In this document: positions 2,201-10,251 of the stretch, piece by piece
How the letters are laid out: each line of letters opens with the position of its first letter
Numbering within the stretch: the first letter of the stretch is position 1
DNA from: Sphingomonadales bacterium
Lineage (GTDB): Bacteria; Pseudomonadota; Alphaproteobacteria; Sphingomonadales; Sphingomonadaceae
NCBI GenBank assembly: GCA_020200935.1
Contig: JAIVHR010000201.1
Span: forward strand, 1-10,251
Length of the DNA stretch: 10,251 nucleotides
Reading direction: 5' to 3'
The notes under the pieces: generated by a model
Told to the model about the DNA's origin: nothing
The model's database searches: none
What the model saw: the letters and a program-made list of their open reading frames with translations, nothing else
Program-made: the position numbers and the translations under genes

Positions 2201-2790
2201 ATGGCTTCGACCCTCAAAATCGCTACCTGGAACATCAATTCGATTCGCTTCCGGCTCGATATCGTCAAACGTTTCCTCGAAGAGGAGGCGCCCGATATCC
2301 TCTGCCTGCAGGAAACCAAGACCGTCGACGATGCCTTTCCCGGCGGTCCGCTGCGCGAGATCGGCTATCGTCATCAGATGATCTGCGGCCAGCCCGCCTA
2401 TCACGGCGTGGCGATCGTCTCGAAGGTGCCGCTCAGGGATCGCGAATGTTTCGACTGGCAGGCCAATGGCGAGGCGCGGCATGTTGCCTGCCGGCTCGAT
2501 TGCGGCTTTCGGCTCCACAATGTCTATGTGCCGGCCGGCGGCGAAGGAAGGCCGCGCATCGCTGGGTCGATCTCGGCCGCAAGTTCGTTCCCGCGCCCGA
2601 ACGCTATTACAGCTGGTGGAGCTATCGCTCGTCCGATTGGACCAAGAACGATCGCGGCCGCCGGCTCGATCATATGTGGGCGAGCCCCGATCTCGCCGAG
2701 AAGGCGGTCGACCACGTAATTCACGAACCCTGCCGATCCTGGATCAAGCCGTCCGACCATGTGCCGCTGGTGACCGAATTCCGTGTCTGA
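2201..2790 (+). pseudogene. xthA: Exodeoxyribonuclease III, broken by an internal frameshifting deletion
   Basis: Exonuclease III is an AP endonuclease and 3' exonuclease of base-excision repair. Residues 1-114 are intact from MASTLKIATWNINSIRFR (start at 2201, with GGAG five bases upstream), including the metal-binding Glu of LCLQETK (Glu38) and the Tyr of NVYVPAGG. That frame is lost at about 2543-2559. The C-terminal part resumes in another frame with HRWVDLGRKFVPAPERYYSW, then RRLDHMW and the catalytic His of [12 protein letters not shown], ending at the TGA at 2788-2790. About 190 residues are encoded against the usual 260 or so, so about 70 are missing. They include the GDFN motif that carries catalytic Asp and Asn. 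As written, translation leaves frame and stops at 2719, and no active enzyme is made. Both flanks show no other decay, so a sequencing or assembly error is as likely as a true mutation. ribA overlaps the end. Confidence 0.9.
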
Positions 2791-3868
2791 TCGGGCGCCC
2801 CCCGACGGCCGCCGCGCGGCACAGGCGATCGACGCGTTTCGGCGCGGCTGGCCGGTCGGGATTGCCGGAGACGCGGGTGCGGTCCGGGTGCTGGCGGTCG
2901 AGAATGCCGATCCGGCCGGGCTTGCCGCATTCGACGGCGAGGCTCGGGCCGATATCGTCATCACCGCCGGCCGAGCCCAGACGCTGAAGCTCGCCAACCA
3001 GAAGGAGGCGGCGACGCCGGGCACGCCGGTGCGAATCCGCCGCGAAGACTGGCACGATCTGGCCGCGGCCCAAGCCATCGCCGATCCGGCCTTCGATCTG
3101 CGGTACCCGCTCAAGGGCCCGTTCCATGCCTTGCCCGCCGAACCCGGCGACGCGTTCGCCGCGGCGCTCGAACTGGCGCGGTTGGCCAACCTGCTGCCGG
3201 CGATGTTCGTGAGCGAGGGCGAGGCCGGGGGCGAAACCATCGGCGCCGTCACCCCGGCCGATATCGCCGCCTATGAGGACCCGGCCGACCTCGCCATCGC
3301 CGCCCGGGCGCGGCTGCCGGTCGCCGCCGCCGAACAGGGCGAGATCGTCGCCTTCCGCCACCGCGCCGACGCCGCCGAACATGTCGCGCTGCTGATCGGC
3401 GCGCCGACCGGCGAGCCGCCGCTCGTGCGCCTCCACAGCGAATGCCTGACCGGCGACGTGCTGGCCTCGCTCAAATGCGATTGCGGGCCGCAGCTGGCGG
3501 GCGCGCTCGCCGAGATCGCCGCCGTCGGCTGGGGCATCCTGCTCTATCTGCGCCAGGAAGGGCGCGGCATCGGGCTGGTCAACAAGATCCGCGCCTATGC
3601 GCTGCAGGATGGCGGTTTCGACACGGTCGAGGCGAATATGCGGCTCGGCTTCGAGAGCGACGCGCGCGATTTCGGTATCGCCGCGCGGATGCTCGAATTG
3701 CTCGGCCAGCCGCGGGTACGGCTGCTGACCAACAATCCCGCCAAGGTGTCGGGGCTCGAAGCCGCCGGCATCGCGGTCACCGAACGCGTCGCGCACCGCC
3801 ACGGCGAGAACCCGCACAATGAGGCCTATCTGGCGACCAAGCGCGAGAAGAGCGGGCATCAGCTGTAG
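2783..3868 (+). CDS. ribA: GTP cyclohydrolase II, long form with N-terminal extension
   Basis: Catalyses the first step of riboflavin synthesis, opening GTP to a diaminopyrimidine with release of formate and pyrophosphate. The product is 361 residues. The catalytic domain spans about 180-361 and closely follows the E. coli enzyme: LHSECLTGD (218-225) and KCDCG (231-235) supply the three zinc cysteines (221, 232, 234). [20 protein letters not shown] (255-274), TVEAN and [10 protein letters not shown] (313-322) follow. The first 180 residues are an extra domain of the type seen in many alphaproteobacterial RibA proteins; no DHBP-synthase signature (RibB) is visible there, so I do not call it bifunctional. 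The GTG start at 2783 overlaps the xthA end by 8 bases, which implies translational coupling in the intact operon. No strong ribosome binding site is seen. The xthA frameshift would end upstream translation at 2719 and could weaken ribA expression. Confidence 0.95.
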
Positions 3869-3890
3869 CTGAAGGGAATCGGCGCAGCAC

Positions 3891-4042
3891 TTCTCCTTCT
3901 CCGCTTGTGGGAGAAGGTCGGGAAGAGGGGTGCGGTCGCGAAGGCTCGATGCCTGAGCGTCCGCTTTGCGGTTGGACAGAGTCTTTTCGGCCGCAGACGC
4001 GGCCGGCCCCTCACCCAACCCTCTCCCACAAGGGGAGAGGGC
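3891..4042. repeat. Imperfect inverted repeat between convergent ribA and HAD gene
   Basis: The left arm (about 3891-3931, core GCTTGTGGGAGAAGGTCGGG) and the right arm (about 4007-4042, core CCCAACCCTCTCCCACAAGG) are imperfect reverse complements of roughly 38 bases flanking about 75 bases. The right arm is the well-known dispersed motif CTCTCCCACAAGGGGAGAGG, itself a hairpin. The element fills most of the gap between two genes that end toward each other and may act as a bidirectional terminator. Its inner sequence (with ATG ORFs) shows no recognisable gene. Confidence 0.7.
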
Positions 4043-4064
4043 TATGTTGGCGACCCATCAATAC

Positions 4065-4733
4065 TCATTCCTCGAGCTCGCTGATCAGCCTGTCGAGCGC
4101 GGCATAATCCTCGACGAGATGATGCGCGCCGGTGTCGCGCAGCCGTTCGCCATGGCCGTCGCGTATGTGGCTGCCGCCGAGGAAGCCGACCACCGTCATC
4201 CCCGCCGCGACCCCGGCGGCGACACCGGTCGGGCTGTCCTCGATGACGAGCGTGCGTTCGGGGTGGACCGCGAGCCTGTCGGCGGCGTGGAGATAGATGT
4301 CGGGATGCGGCTTGCCGCGGTCGATCTCGGCGGCGCTGTAGACGTGGGTGCCGAAATGATGGTCGATGCCGAAACGGGCGAGGCTGTCGAACAGCCATGC
4401 GGATGCGCTCGACGAGGCGATCGCGCGGCCGCGATGGCGATGGCTTTCGATGAAATCGGCGACCCCGCCGATCAGCTCGGTCTCGGCCGCGAGCCGCAAC
4501 ACGGCTTCGTCGACCAGGCTCTCGACGAAGCCGTCGGGCAGCTTGCGGCCGAGCTGCGCCTCGATCAGCGCCGTGCAGTCGGTCCAGCGCTTGCCGCAAT
4601 AACGTTCGAGCGCCTGATCGACCGTGGTCGGGCTGCCGAGCCTGGTCAGCGTTTCGGCGAGCGCGCTGTTCGAGACGATCTCGCTATCGACGATGACGCC
4701 GTCGAAATCGAAGATGATGGCATCGAATTTCAT
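4065..4733 (-). CDS. HAD-superfamily hydrolase, beta-phosphoglucomutase-like subgroup
   Basis: Cytoplasmic phosphatase or phosphomutase of the haloacid dehalogenase superfamily, 222 residues. All four HAD motifs are present. Motif I is FDFDGVIVDSE with nucleophile Asp9 and acid/base Asp11. Motif II is the Ser run in AIASSSAS (about 105-111), motif III is Lys141 of RGKPHPDIYL, and motif IV is VIEDSPTGVAAGVAAGM (163-179). An alpha-helical cap lies between motifs I and II, which places it in subfamily I near YniC, YqaB and beta-phosphoglucomutase. Substrate cannot be read from the sequence; a sugar phosphate is the usual guess. The start at 4733 was chosen because motif I begins a few residues later; an in-frame ATG at 4790 only adds unrelated residues. 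It lies downstream of yggS on the same strand, separated by the repeat at 4795-4886, so co-transcription is possible. Confidence 0.88.
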   Translation of the reverse strand: MKFDAIIFDFDGVIVDSEIVSNSALAETLTRLGSPTTVDQALERYCGKRWTDCTALIEAQLGRKLPDGFVESLVDEAVLRLAAETELIGGVADFIESHRHRGRAIASSSASAWLFDSLARFGIDHHFGTHVYSAAEIDRGKPHPDIYLHAADRLAVHPERTLVIEDSPTGVAAGVAAGMTVVGFLGGSHIRDGHGERLRDTGAHHLVEDYAALDRLISELEE

Positions 4734-4794
4734 GGCGACAATCCGGGGGATCGTGGTGATTCGATGCCGTCGTGGAAGCGCATGCCCCAACTAA

Positions 4795-4886
4795 CCCGTT
4801 CGGGCTGAGCTTGTCGAAGCCCTGCCTTTGCTTTCTCCACATGAGAAGAACAAGGACAGCCCTTCGACAGGCTCAGGGCGAACGGG
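4795..4886. repeat. CCGTTCGGG-family inverted repeat, copy 1 (yggS / HAD gap)
   Basis: The left arm 4795-4824 (CCCGTTCGGGCTGAGCTTGT and on) pairs with the right arm 4857-4886 (CAGCCCTTCGACAGGCTCAG and on) with about 5 mismatches in 30, around a 32-base spacer. It begins two bases after the yggS stop codon and ends 61 bases before the HAD gene start, so it lies in the likely yggS-HAD transcript. Further copies are at 6147-6234 and 9913-9993, with a fragment at 9393-9416. The wording (GGCTGAGCTTGTCGAAG) is a familiar sphingomonad dispersed repeat. Confidence 0.88.
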
Positions 4887-4888
4887 AG

Positions 4889-5563
4889 TTACTCGCCACG
4901 TTCGCCGAACAGCGCCGTCCCCACCCGCACATGGGTCGCGCCGCACATCACCGCCGTCTCGAAATCGCCCGACATGCCCATCGAGAGCGCCGCGAGGCCG
5001 TGTTCCTTCGCCAGCCTGCCGAGCAAGGCGAAATAGGGGGCGGGCTCGGTGTCGATCGGCGGGATGCACATCAGCCCGGCGATCGCGAGATCGCGGTCGC
5101 GGCAGCGTTCGAGCAGGCCCGGCAGATCGCCGATCGCGCAGCCGCCCTTCTGATCCTCCTCGCCGATATCGACCTGGACGAACAGCGCCGGGCGGCGATC
5201 GGTCTTTTCGAAAGCCTTGGCCAGCGCCTTGACCAAAGAGGGCCGGTCGACGGTGTGGATGGCATCGAACAGGGCGACCGCATCCTCGGCCTTGTTCGAC
5301 TGGAGACTGCCGACCATGTGCAGTTCGATATCGGCGACCTCCTCGCGCAGCGCCGGCCACTTGTCCTGCGCCTCCTGCACGCGATTCTCGCCGAAGACGC
5401 GCTGGCTGGCGGCGATCAGCGGGCGGATCGCTTCGGGTCCCCAGGTCTTGGAAATCGCGATCAGGCTGACATCGTCCGCCTTGCGCCCGGCCTTGCCGGA
5501 CGCTTTCGCGATCCTTTCGCGAACCTCGGAAAGCCGAACTGCGGGATTGTCGCCGTCGCTCAT
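4889..5563 (-). CDS. yggS: YggS/PROSC-family pyridoxal-phosphate homeostasis protein
   Basis: Small cytoplasmic protein that binds pyridoxal 5'-phosphate and keeps free PLP and related amino-acid pools in balance; no robust enzyme activity is known for the family. The product is 224 residues and resembles the N-terminal barrel of alanine racemase. Visible signatures are LIAISKTW with the PLP lysine Lys39, FGENRVQEAQDKW (57-69), HMVGSLQSNK (82-91), IHTVDRPSL, SMGMSGDFE (194-202) and HVRVGTALFGER (211-222), the last two forming the phosphate-binding part. The start at 5563 matches the family length; the longer ORF from 5668 runs into the divergent gene. No Shine-Dalgarno sequence precedes the ATG, but TATAGC lies 7 bases upstream, which suggests a leaderless mRNA. 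It diverges from the ThiE-like gene, with only 22 bases between the starts. Confidence 0.95.
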   Translation of the reverse strand: MSDGDNPAVRLSEVRERIAKASGKAGRKADDVSLIAISKTWGPEAIRPLIAASQRVFGENRVQEAQDKWPALREEVADIELHMVGSLQSNKAEDAVALFDAIHTVDRPSLVKALAKAFEKTDRRPALFVQVDIGEEDQKGGCAIGDLPGLLERCRDRDLAIAGLMCIPPIDTEPAPYFALLGRLAKEHGLAALSMGMSGDFETAVMCGATHVRVGTALFGERGE

Positions 5564-5588
5564 GCCGCTTGCTATAGGAAGCGCCGTG
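5561..5588. promoter_or_regulatory. Symmetric divergent promoter with shared TATA, yggS / thiE-like
   Basis: The 22-base gap between the two start codons centres on one TATA (5573-5576). Plus strand: TATAGG, then AAGCGCC, then GTG at 5586. Minus strand: TATAGC, then AAGCGGC, then ATG at 5563. The 12-base arms match in 9 positions. Each -10-like hexamer lies 7 bases from its start codon, so both transcripts may be leaderless. No clear -35 is seen on either side. On the plus strand AGGAAG (5576-5581) could instead serve as a Shine-Dalgarno sequence if transcription starts further upstream. Confidence 0.5.
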
Positions 5589-6134
5589 CGACGCGGCCAC
5601 CCTCTCCCACGGCTCTGGTTGATGAGCGACGAGCGGCAGGGCGAGGCGCTGTGGCCGGCGCTCGACAATCTGCCGGCGGGAAGCGGCGTCGTCGTCCGGC
5701 ATTATTCGCTCGCCCGCGCCGAGCGCCGTACGCTCATTGATCGCGTGCGCGAGATCGCCCGGCCTCGCGGCCTGGTGTTGATCGTCGCTGGACCGCCGGA
5801 TCTCGCCACCGCCTGCGGGGCCGACGGATTTCATGAACGGTCCGAGCGTATCGGGCCGCCCGAGCTGCTGCGGACCATGTCGGCGCATGACGCGGCCGAG
5901 ATCGAGACGGCCGAACGCGTCGGCGCCGATCTGGTTTTCGTGTCCCCGGTCTTCGCCACCCGCAGCCATACGGAGGCGCCGGCGCTCGGCCGCGCGAAAT
6001 TCACTTCGCTCGTCGGGCAGACCGATTTGCCCGTGGTCGCTCTCGGCGGCATGGATGCCGAACGAGCGCACAGCCTCGCCGGGACGGGGATGCATGGATG
6101 GGCGGCGATCGGCGCGCTGACGCCGACGAATTGA
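5586..6134 (+). CDS. Thiamine-phosphate-synthase-like protein (ThiE/TenI family), divergent active site
   Basis: TIM-barrel protein of the ThiE/TenI family, 182 residues from the GTG at 5586. That start is preferred over the ATG at 5622 because the residues RLWLMSDER look like the first barrel strand and AGGAAG lies 4 bases upstream. Family marks are DLATACGADGFHE (72-84), GADLVFVSPVFATRSH (113-128), PVVALGGM (149-156) and GWAAIGAL (171-178). ThiE joins the pyrimidine and thiazole halves of thiamine. However, residues that bind Mg-pyrophosphate in classical ThiE (the Asn-Asp of the xNDxxDLA strand, the Asp after HxGQED, and a Lys after the PVFxT loop) are not visible: the positions read VAGPPDLA, FHERSE and FATRSHTE. 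It may be a TenI-like or reassigned relative. It diverges from yggS and converges on the beta-barrel gene. Confidence 0.8.
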   Translation: MRRGHPLPRLWLMSDERQGEALWPALDNLPAGSGVVVRHYSLARAERRTLIDRVREIARPRGLVLIVAGPPDLATACGADGFHERSERIGPPELLRTMSAHDAAEIETAERVGADLVFVSPVFATRSHTEAPALGRAKFTSLVGQTDLPVVALGGMDAERAHSLAGTGMHGWAAIGALTPTN

Positions 6135-6146
6135 CGCAACCTCTTG

Positions 6147-6234
6147 CCGTTCGGGCTGAGCCGTCGAAACCCTGCTTTCCTTTTTCTCTCGGGCAAGAAG
6201 AAGCGCAGCCCTTCGACAAGCTCAGGGCGAACGG
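6147..6234. repeat. CCGTTCGGG-family inverted repeat, copy 2 (convergent gap)
   Basis: The left arm 6147-6174 (CCGTTCGGGCTGAGC, then CGTCGAAACCCTG, two bases shorter than the other copies) pairs with the right arm 6206-6234 (CAGCCCTTCGACAAGCTCAG and on). It lies between the 3' ends of two convergent genes, only 12 bases past the ThiE-like stop and 17 bases from the beta-barrel stop. A role as a two-way terminator is plausible. The left arm is the more degraded one. Confidence 0.87.
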
Positions 6235-7731: not shown

Positions 7732-9892
7732 ATGACTTCGCGCTTCAACCCGAAAGCGGCCGACGCGCGCTGGCAGAAAGTCTGGGACGAATCGGGCACG
7801 TTCGAGGCCGATACCGCCGCGCCCAAGCCCAAAAGCTACGTGCTCGAGATGTTCCCCTATCCTTCGGGGCGCATCCATATGGGCCATGTCCGCAACTATA
7901 CGATGGGCGACGTGCTCGCCCGCTTCCGGCGGATGCAAGGCCATGAGGTGCTCCACCCGATGGGCTGGGACGCCTTCGGCATGCCGGCCGAAAATGCGGC
8001 GATGGAAAAGAAGGTCCATCCCGGCGAATGGACGCGCGCCAATATCGCCGCGATGCGCGACCAGCTCAAGCGGCTCGGATTCGCGCTCGACTGGAGCCGC
8101 GAGCTCGCGACCTGCGAACCCGATTATTACGGCCACGAACAGGCGCTGTTCCTCGATCTCCACGAGGCTGGCCTCGTCTATCGCAAGGGCCGCGCAATTC
8201 GTCAAGCAATGCCAGGCCGGCGGCACTTCGGCGGCCGATATCGAGACGGCCGAGAAGCTGGGCTACGATACCGGCCTGACCGCGCGTCACCCGTTCGAGC
8301 CCGAATGGGAACTGCCGCTCTACATCGCCAATTTCGTGCTGATGGATTACGGCACCGGCGCGATTTTCGGCGTCCCGGCGCACGACCAGCGCGACCTCGA
8401 TTTCGCGCGCAAATACGGGCTGCCGGTTCGCCGCGTCATCGCCGACGGGGAGGAGGCCGATCCCGAATTTGCCGGCGGCGAAGCCTTTTCGGGCGACGGC
8501 GCGCTGGTTAATTCGCGCTTCCTCGACGGCATGGAGATCGAGACCGCCAAATCCGCGGTCATCTCCCGCGCCGAGGAGGAGGGTTGGGGCGAAGGGACGA
8601 CGGTCTGGCGGCTGCGCGACTGGGGCGTCTCGCGCCAGCGTTACTGGGGCACGCCGATCCCGATGATCCATTGCGCCGAATGCGGCGCGGTCCCGGTTCC
8701 GCGCGACCAGTTGCCGATCATACTGCCCGAGGACGTCGATTTCGAGACCCCGGGCAACCCGCTCGACCGGCATCCGGACTGGAAGCATGTCGCCTGCCCG
8801 CAATGCGGCGGCGAGGCGGAGCGCGAGACCGACACGCTCGACACCTTCGTCGACAGCAGCTGGTATTTCATCCGCTTCGCCAGCCAGCCCGGGGACAAGC
8901 CCTTCGACGCGGCGGCGGCCGACGCATGGCTTCCGGTCGGCCAGTATATCGGCGGTGTCGAGCATGCGATCCTCCATCTGCTCTATGCGCGTTTCATGAC
9001 GCGGGCGCTCAACCGGATGGGTCGGATCGGCGTCAAGGAGCCCTTCGCCGGGCTCTTCACCCAGGGCATGGTGACGCACGAGACCTACGAGGCCGGCGAC
9101 GGCAGCTGGCTATCGCCCGACGAGGTGACCAGGGACGGCGACGACTGGGTGCGGGTCGCGGACGGCAGTCCGGTGACTCCGGGCCGCATCGAAAAGATGT
9201 CGAAATCGAAGAAGAACACCGTCGATCCCGATCCAATCGTCGACCAGTATGGGGCCGATGCGGTGCGCTGGTTCATGCTTTCCGACAGCCCGCCCGAGCG
9301 CGATCTCGAATGGAGCGAGGCGGGGATCGAGGGCGCCTGGCGCTTCGTCCAGCGGCTCTGGCGGCTGGTCGCCGACGATAAAAGCGGGACGGGCCCTTCG
9401 ACTGAGCTCAGGACAGGCGAAGATGCTGATCTCGACCGCAGGCTGCACCGGACGATCGCCGGGGTGGCCGAGGATATCGAAGCGCTCGGCTTCAACAAGG
9501 CGGTCGCCAAGATCCACGAGCTCGCCAATGCGATCGAGAAGGCCGAACCCTCGGCGAGCCGCGCCGAGGCGGTGCGCACGCTGATCCGGCTCGTCGCGCC
9601 GATGGTGCCGCATCTCGCCGAGGAGGCCTGGGCGAAGATCGGCGGCGAAGGCCTCGTCGCGGACGCCCCCTGGCCCGAGCTCGACGAGAGCCTGCTGGTC
9701 GAAGAGGAGGTGACGATCGCGATCCAGGTCAACGGCAAGCTGCGCGATACGCTGACCGCCGCCAAGGGCGCGTCGAAGCCCGATCTCGAAAAGCTGGCGC
9801 TGGCTTCGGAGAAAGTCGCGCGTCAGCTCGACGGCAGCGCGCCGAAAAAGGTCATCGTCGTCCCCGACCGTCTCGTGAACATCGTCGCATGA
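7732..9892 (+). pseudogene. leuS: Leucyl-tRNA synthetase, broken by an internal frameshifting deletion
   Basis: Class I aminoacyl-tRNA synthetase that charges tRNA-Leu. Residues 1-152 are intact from [15 protein letters not shown], with the HIGH-type motif HMGH (49-52) and [13 protein letters not shown], up to LVYRK. At about 8187-8199 the frame changes. The rest resumes at [13 protein letters not shown] in another frame and runs to the stop at 9892. It contains the end of the editing domain ([20 protein letters not shown]), [11 protein letters not shown], cysteine pairs CAECG and CPQCG, KMSKS (9194-9208) and the C-terminal VNGKLRD. About 720 residues are encoded against roughly 840-860 normally. 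The missing 125 or so cover the NWDPVD and NWIG regions and the editing-site TTRPDT motif. As written the upstream frame stops at 8511. Because the gene is usually essential and single-copy, an assembly error is the first suspicion. Confidence 0.92.
9393..9416 (+). repeat. Fragment of the CCGTTCGGG-family repeat inside the leuS reading frame
   Basis: GCCCTTCGACTGAGCTCAGG resembles the right arm of the intergenic copies (CCCTTCGACAAGCTCAGG). It includes the perfect 10-base palindrome CTGAGCTCAG (9402-9411). It is translated in frame as [10 protein letters not shown], in the linker between the catalytic core (VADDKS) and the anticodon-binding helices ([10 protein letters not shown]). Confidence 0.65.
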
Positions 9893-9912: not shown

Positions 9913-9993
9913 CCCGTTCGGGCCGAGCTTGTCGAAGCCCTGCCCTTCTTCTTGAAGAAAATGACAACCCTTCGACAAGCTCAGCCCGAACGG
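9913..9993. repeat. CCGTTCGGG-family inverted repeat, copy 3 (leuS / lptE)
   Basis: The left arm 9913-9942 (CCCGTTCGGGCCGAGCTTGT and on) pairs with the right arm 9965-9993 (ACCCTTCGACAAGCTCAGCC and on) over a 22-base spacer. In this copy the CCCGAACGG end pairs perfectly with the left arm, unlike copies 1 and 2. The element starts 20 bases after the leuS stop, and the lptE start codon at 9961 lies in its spacer. Confidence 0.88.
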
Positions 9994-10251
9994 AATTGGC
10001 TGGCGCTGACGCTGATCCTCCTCCTCGCCCTCCCCCTTCTCGCCTCCTGCGGCTTACGCCCGCTTTACGGCAATGCCGGCAGCCCGGCCGTCCGGACGCT
10101 CGGCGCGGTCGCGGTCGGGCCGATCGAGGGCCGCGCCGGCTATCTGATGCGCGGCGCGCTCGAACAGCGGCTCGGCGCGGTCGGCGAGCGCGAGCCGCGC
10201 TACCGGCTCGAAGTGGTGCTCGATGACGAGATCACCGGCTTCGGCGTCCGC
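9961..10251 (+). CDS. lptE: LPS-assembly lipoprotein LptE, N-terminal part (3' end outside window)
   Basis: LptE is the outer-membrane lipoprotein that plugs the LptD barrel and helps deliver lipopolysaccharide to the cell surface. The 97 codons visible show a lipoprotein signal with a hydrophobic stretch LALTLILLLALPLLASC (residues 14-30) and a lipobox LASC (Cys30), followed by GLRPLYG, the typical first motif of LptE. Next come VAVGPIEGRAGYLMRGALEQ and RYRLEVVLDDEITGFGVR, which fit the family's first strand and helix; the frame is open at the window edge. The only in-frame ATG before the signal core is at 9961, inside the dispersed repeat, so residues 4-11 (LRQAQPER) are encoded by the repeat's right arm. 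The ribosome binding site is weak (GAAG a few bases upstream). leuS lies 68 bases before it; in related genomes holA follows. Confidence 0.88.
   Translation, partial: MTTLRQAQPERNWLALTLILLLALPLLASCGLRPLYGNAGSPAVRTLGAVAVGPIEGRAGYLMRGALEQRLGAVGEREPRYRLEVVLDDEITGFGVR

Follow-up and report, generated by a model that had tools for sequence, protein, structure and literature searches.

The break in the LeuRS gene (leuS) of this sphingomonad draft genome is very probably an artefact of assembly, contigs having been joined over an unsequenced gap that was set at zero, and neither a pseudogene nor a new LeuRS. The leuS gene is an essential housekeeping gene. The window, by which is meant the whole stretch of 10,251 nucleotides that was analysed, is one entire contig (C279); the assembly to which it belongs has 343 contigs with 2,107,072 bases in all and is 66% complete. 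The closest named protein relatives of the strain belong to Parasphingopyxis.

In the window, leuS lies in two pieces that occupy different frames (Table 1). The first frame is open over 7732-8187, which amounts to 152 codons ending in ...EAGLVYRK, and the second is open from 8189 to the stop codon at 9890-9892. This confirms an earlier, sequence-only reading, according to which the N-terminal frame runs cleanly to LVYRK and breaks, with a C-terminal frame resuming beyond it. The same reading had put the loss at about 375 bases and at a length that is not a multiple of three; the frameshifting loss stands, and the size proves slightly larger. In alignments to sphingomonad LeuS, a check that the reading had itself proposed, exactly 383 bp (3 x 127 + 2) are absent in comparison with all seven same-genus relatives aligned, both by HSP coordinates and by alignment, and an exact count against four relatives with longer stretches gives 383 bp again. 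Against two relatives of other genera the loss is 374 and 371 bp, because these relatives are themselves 9 and 12 bases shorter there. The N-terminal piece aligns ungapped with four same-genus relatives at 86-89% DNA identity. The position of the join, 8188/8189, is good to within a few bases either way, since the strain's own lost bases are not seen.

Table 1. Pieces and joins of the two interrupted genes in the window.
Feature	Position	Strand	Evidence
leuS N-terminal piece with HMGHVRNY signature, to LVYRK	7732..8188	+	TIGR00396 positions 2-148 of 843, 230.7 bits
leuS join, 383 bp absent	8188..8189	+	HSP coordinates and alignment (seven same-genus relatives), exact count (four relatives)
leuS C-terminal piece, other frame: distal editing domain, KMSKS loop, anticodon-binding domain	8189..9892	+	TIGR00396 positions 276-841, 581.3 bits against a cut-off of 548.4; PF13603 positions 59-184 of 185
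xth N-terminal piece	2201..2544	+	TIGR00633 positions 1-121 of 255; start codon is the author's reading
xth join, 205 bp absent, frame broken	2544..2545	+	four same-genus relatives
xth C-terminal piece, other frame	2545..2790	+	TIGR00633 positions 185-254 of 255; Pfam PF03372 positions 173-225

The content of the missing segment is also as the sequence-only reading had it, namely the part with NWDPVD, NWIG and TTRPDT, since all three motifs are present in the corresponding segment of six relatives. Both pieces match the bacterial LeuRS family TIGR00396, and the gene differs from that family in the loss of 127 codons and of the frame at the join. The C-terminal piece passes the family cut-off alone, the N-terminal piece falls below it, and positions about 149-275 of the family model are in neither. 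A regular member of the family would have a single continuous frame and a complete PF13603 editing domain; here there are two frames with 383 bp absent, and the editing domain is incomplete. In the two intact relatives scanned with Pfam, PF13603 is matched over positions 1-184. Here the break splits the domain, of which positions 1-58 are absent and 59-184 are kept, and it therefore lies off any domain edge.

The same contig carries a second break, in the exonuclease III gene (xth), 5.6 kb from the break in leuS. The loss is exactly 205 bp compared to all four same-genus relatives examined there. This break, at 2544-2545, does not appear in the sequence-only reading. A dispersed repeat of about 80-90 bp lies elsewhere in the window, at 6147-6234 and 9914-9999, and matches, in either orientation, one stretch of a relative (L045).

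Clean losses of the same sort are found on three other contigs of the assembly. A PfkB-like kinase gene on C98 has lost 244 bp and an M3-peptidase-like gene on C107 has lost 302/303 bp, with the frame broken and two relatives in agreement in each case. An Amt-like transporter gene on C29 has lost 183 bp and a Sir2-like gene on C107 has lost 90 bp, both multiples of three and both with three relatives in agreement. (The four gene names are the author's reading of the open frames and carry no library matches.) With leuS and xth included, four contigs carry six N-free cuts in total, and in four of the six the frame is broken. The 183- and 90-bp cuts, which keep the frame, could be of natural origin and were counted against the artefact reading. 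At C340 (L057), 38 consecutive N fill a place that in three relatives is occupied by 161 bp; therefore at least that gap estimate is 123 bp too short. An underestimated gap, as an assembly join would predict, is thus seen at the sole gap measured. The internal N runs that were met number five, with 38, 47, 3, 104 and 17 bases.

These results come from eight other stretches of the strain's own assembly compared over their full length (L048, L049, L050, L051, L052, L057, L158 and L166). N-free cuts were seen in three of the eight (L048, L051 and L158) and the short N gap in L057, and no cut was seen in the other four (L049, L050, L052 and L166), a point against the artefact reading. L054 was compared only partly, and L053, L055, L056, L058 and 18 of the 20 in another batch were left out. 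The partners were two relatives in one search and three in the others, with 40 candidates scored per genome. Within L050 (contig C194, 2309-5784), a block at about 4874-5784 follows a block at 2309-4798, while three relatives have the two in reversed order; this is either a true rearrangement or a further misjoin. N is the only letter in six contigs 2.7-2.8 kb long (L154, L155 and L162-L165, on C103, C104 and C111-C114).

A loss was called a cut when the strain's own gap was -20 to 60 bp, the relative had 60-1500 bp extra, and the length was equal within 3 bp in at least two loci. The criterion was applied to six of the strain's own stretches and, as control queries, to 21 distinct loci of relatives. 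Two agreed events came from the controls, one of 155/156 bp (L047) and one of 402/403 bp (L064). Both are read as intergenic, the one in L047 lying directly before the likely start codon of xth. Clean cuts in unrelated genes, six of them N-free and on four contigs, are thus a property of this assembly and not of its relatives, which is what assembly joins would leave behind. Which loci of the relatives entered the fine comparison was decided after inspection of the rows, and this biases the sample toward sites of cuts. A loss was excluded from the count if it appeared against a single relative or if its length was unequal between relatives (the window, L048 and L158 each had one such loss, and L050 had five rows); at least 12 unagreed losses in the controls were excluded likewise.

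The assembly artefact probably came about as follows. Two contigs that both ended inside leuS would have been set side by side over an unsequenced gap of about 383 bp. With an estimate of zero or below for this gap, or with its N's dropped later, the ends would have been abutted without a mark. Joining of this kind would also have affected xth and several further genes of the assembly. Gap estimates at or below zero would give joins that lack both N's and a few hundred bases, as observed. The joining step itself we infer. The sequence-only reading had offered an assembly or consensus error as one explanation, and this now has strong support from the clean cuts in xth and on three other contigs and from the C340 gap that is too short. 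Its other suggestion, a second leuS elsewhere, is unsupported, since a search across the 2.1 Mb assembled (66% complete) gave none besides the two pieces. Three further matches, of 50.3, 22 and 21.8 bits on C340 and C31, were read as other synthetases and set aside.

A search with a relative's copy of the missing segment gave, among the best 40 of 213 candidates in the assembly that were scored, a best E-value of 0.005 over 27 bases. Matches this short were ascribed to chance, and among the candidates scored the segment was thus not found on another contig, which speaks against the artefact reading. An intact leuS of the same species was also sought among proteins, and the best was 84% identical (8000 candidates scored and 120 listed, of about 5.8 billion). 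The best record for the same species in a genome collection, which may omit this or a near-identical genome, was 80% identical; neither search thus yielded the intact gene of the species.

Artefactual pseudogenes have been described in bacterial draft genomes, and the likely causes named in the abstract of one study are the assembler, the platform and the coverage (Cooley and Wright 2024, PMC11017572). Like the pseudogenes treated there (PMC11017572), the genes here look broken through assembly and not through evolution. Unlike them, since the abstract deals with frameshifts and internal stops in general (PMC11017572), the genes here have lost whole segments of 90-383 bp at clean joins.

One could consider instead a real and recent deletion, by which leuS became a pseudogene while its work is done by another leuS, located in the third of the genome that is unassembled. 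We give this a small chance. With 66% of the genome assembled, a second copy could be missing, and a clean cut with the remainder of leuS intact is what such a deletion would leave. The dN/dS values are 0.105-0.162 for the N-terminal piece and 0.130-0.223 for the C-terminal piece, compared to 0.098-0.195 between relatives for the latter. As judged from these ratios, both pieces show purifying selection, with the C-terminal piece at or slightly above the range of the relatives, and sequence decay of leuS was rejected on this indication of constraint. Three of the six values for the strain's own C-terminal piece (0.200, 0.206 and 0.223) exceed the maximum of 15 pairs of relatives (0.195), and this position at or above the upper edge speaks for the pseudogene. 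A leuS match over the family cut-off was found in 37 of the 39 relatives searched, the exceptions being G007 (83% complete) and G016, whose leuS is in three pieces. Against the pseudogene, two such matches were found in none of the 39 relatives among the matches listed, which were sorted by E-value. Also, a pseudogene would account for none of the other five cuts, and those in xth and on the three further contigs would require several independent recent deletions. The three pieces of leuS in G016 lie on one contig (C1, about 1244794-1247205) and none is over the cut-off; this one-contig genome is 86% complete and 7% contaminated, and small indel errors are perhaps behind its three-piece leuS.

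A deletion between repeats would be expected to leave a likeness between the break ends, which was examined in the ends of the relatives and not in the bases lost by the strain of the window. At +-10 bases, 2 of 18 comparisons showed a likeness reached by less than 5% of shifted positions, one for leuS and one for C29, and at +-15 bases none of the 18 stood out. The ends of leuS have 10 of 20 matches in one of four relatives (0.029 of shifted positions, with 0.26-0.98 in the other three), and those of C29 have 12 of 20 in one of three (0.027). A real deletion between short repeats could explain these two cases. As a general account, repeat-mediated deletion was rejected since the break ends are not consistently alike. 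The 9-mer GGCCGCGCA, which stands just after both joins in the window (leuS and xth), has 10 occurrences in 128 kb when both strands are counted, and was put down to chance.

Slightly less probable than the pseudogene is a chimeric origin, in which molecules or reads produced by, for example, whole-genome amplification or PCR left out the segment and misled the assembler. Unrelated genes would then also show clean cuts, free of N and a few hundred bases long. They would leave the explicit gap at C340, 123 bp too short, unexplained, however. Template switching usually uses short homology, and such homology is not consistently seen at the break ends.

It is very improbable that all the cuts are real and that the genome of this lineage has entered an early, rapid stage of decay through clean deletions 90-400 bp in length, an unassembled copy or a host providing the function of leuS.

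Hardly any weight falls on a LeuRS variant that would function without part of the editing domain and would be made by a frameshift or from two pieces, even though both frames are open and conserved: the break shifts the frame and ignores the domain edge, and a like cut is present in xth. Some precedents can be compared. Aquifex aeolicus LeuRS consists of two subunits that together hold the whole protein. As with these subunits, the protein encoded by leuS here is divided between two frames within the CP1 region; unlike in Aquifex, 127 codons are absent, and the full protein that a split LeuRS of this type would hold cannot be put together from the two frames. Another precedent, and one that speaks for a variant, is the LeuRS of Mycoplasma mobile, in which CP1 is naturally absent (PMC3834818). 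The loss in leuS here is likewise in the CP1 region, but it takes the first third of the editing domain and the sequence preceding it, out of frame, unlike the enzyme described there (PMC3834818). A LeuRS of that kind would lack the whole of CP1 and keep its frame, whereas here the frame is lost and the greater part of the editing domain is still present.

The artefact reading carries a practical warning: in this draft, clean frame-breaking losses inside genes are probably hidden joins. Therefore, gene absences, pseudogenes and truncated proteins from the draft should not be trusted at face value. Exact missing lengths, compared over several relatives, are a cheap test for such joins that works without reads. 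The break in leuS is no biological novelty; in the living organism, a sphingomonad resembling Parasphingopyxis, the gene is most likely intact and ordinary.
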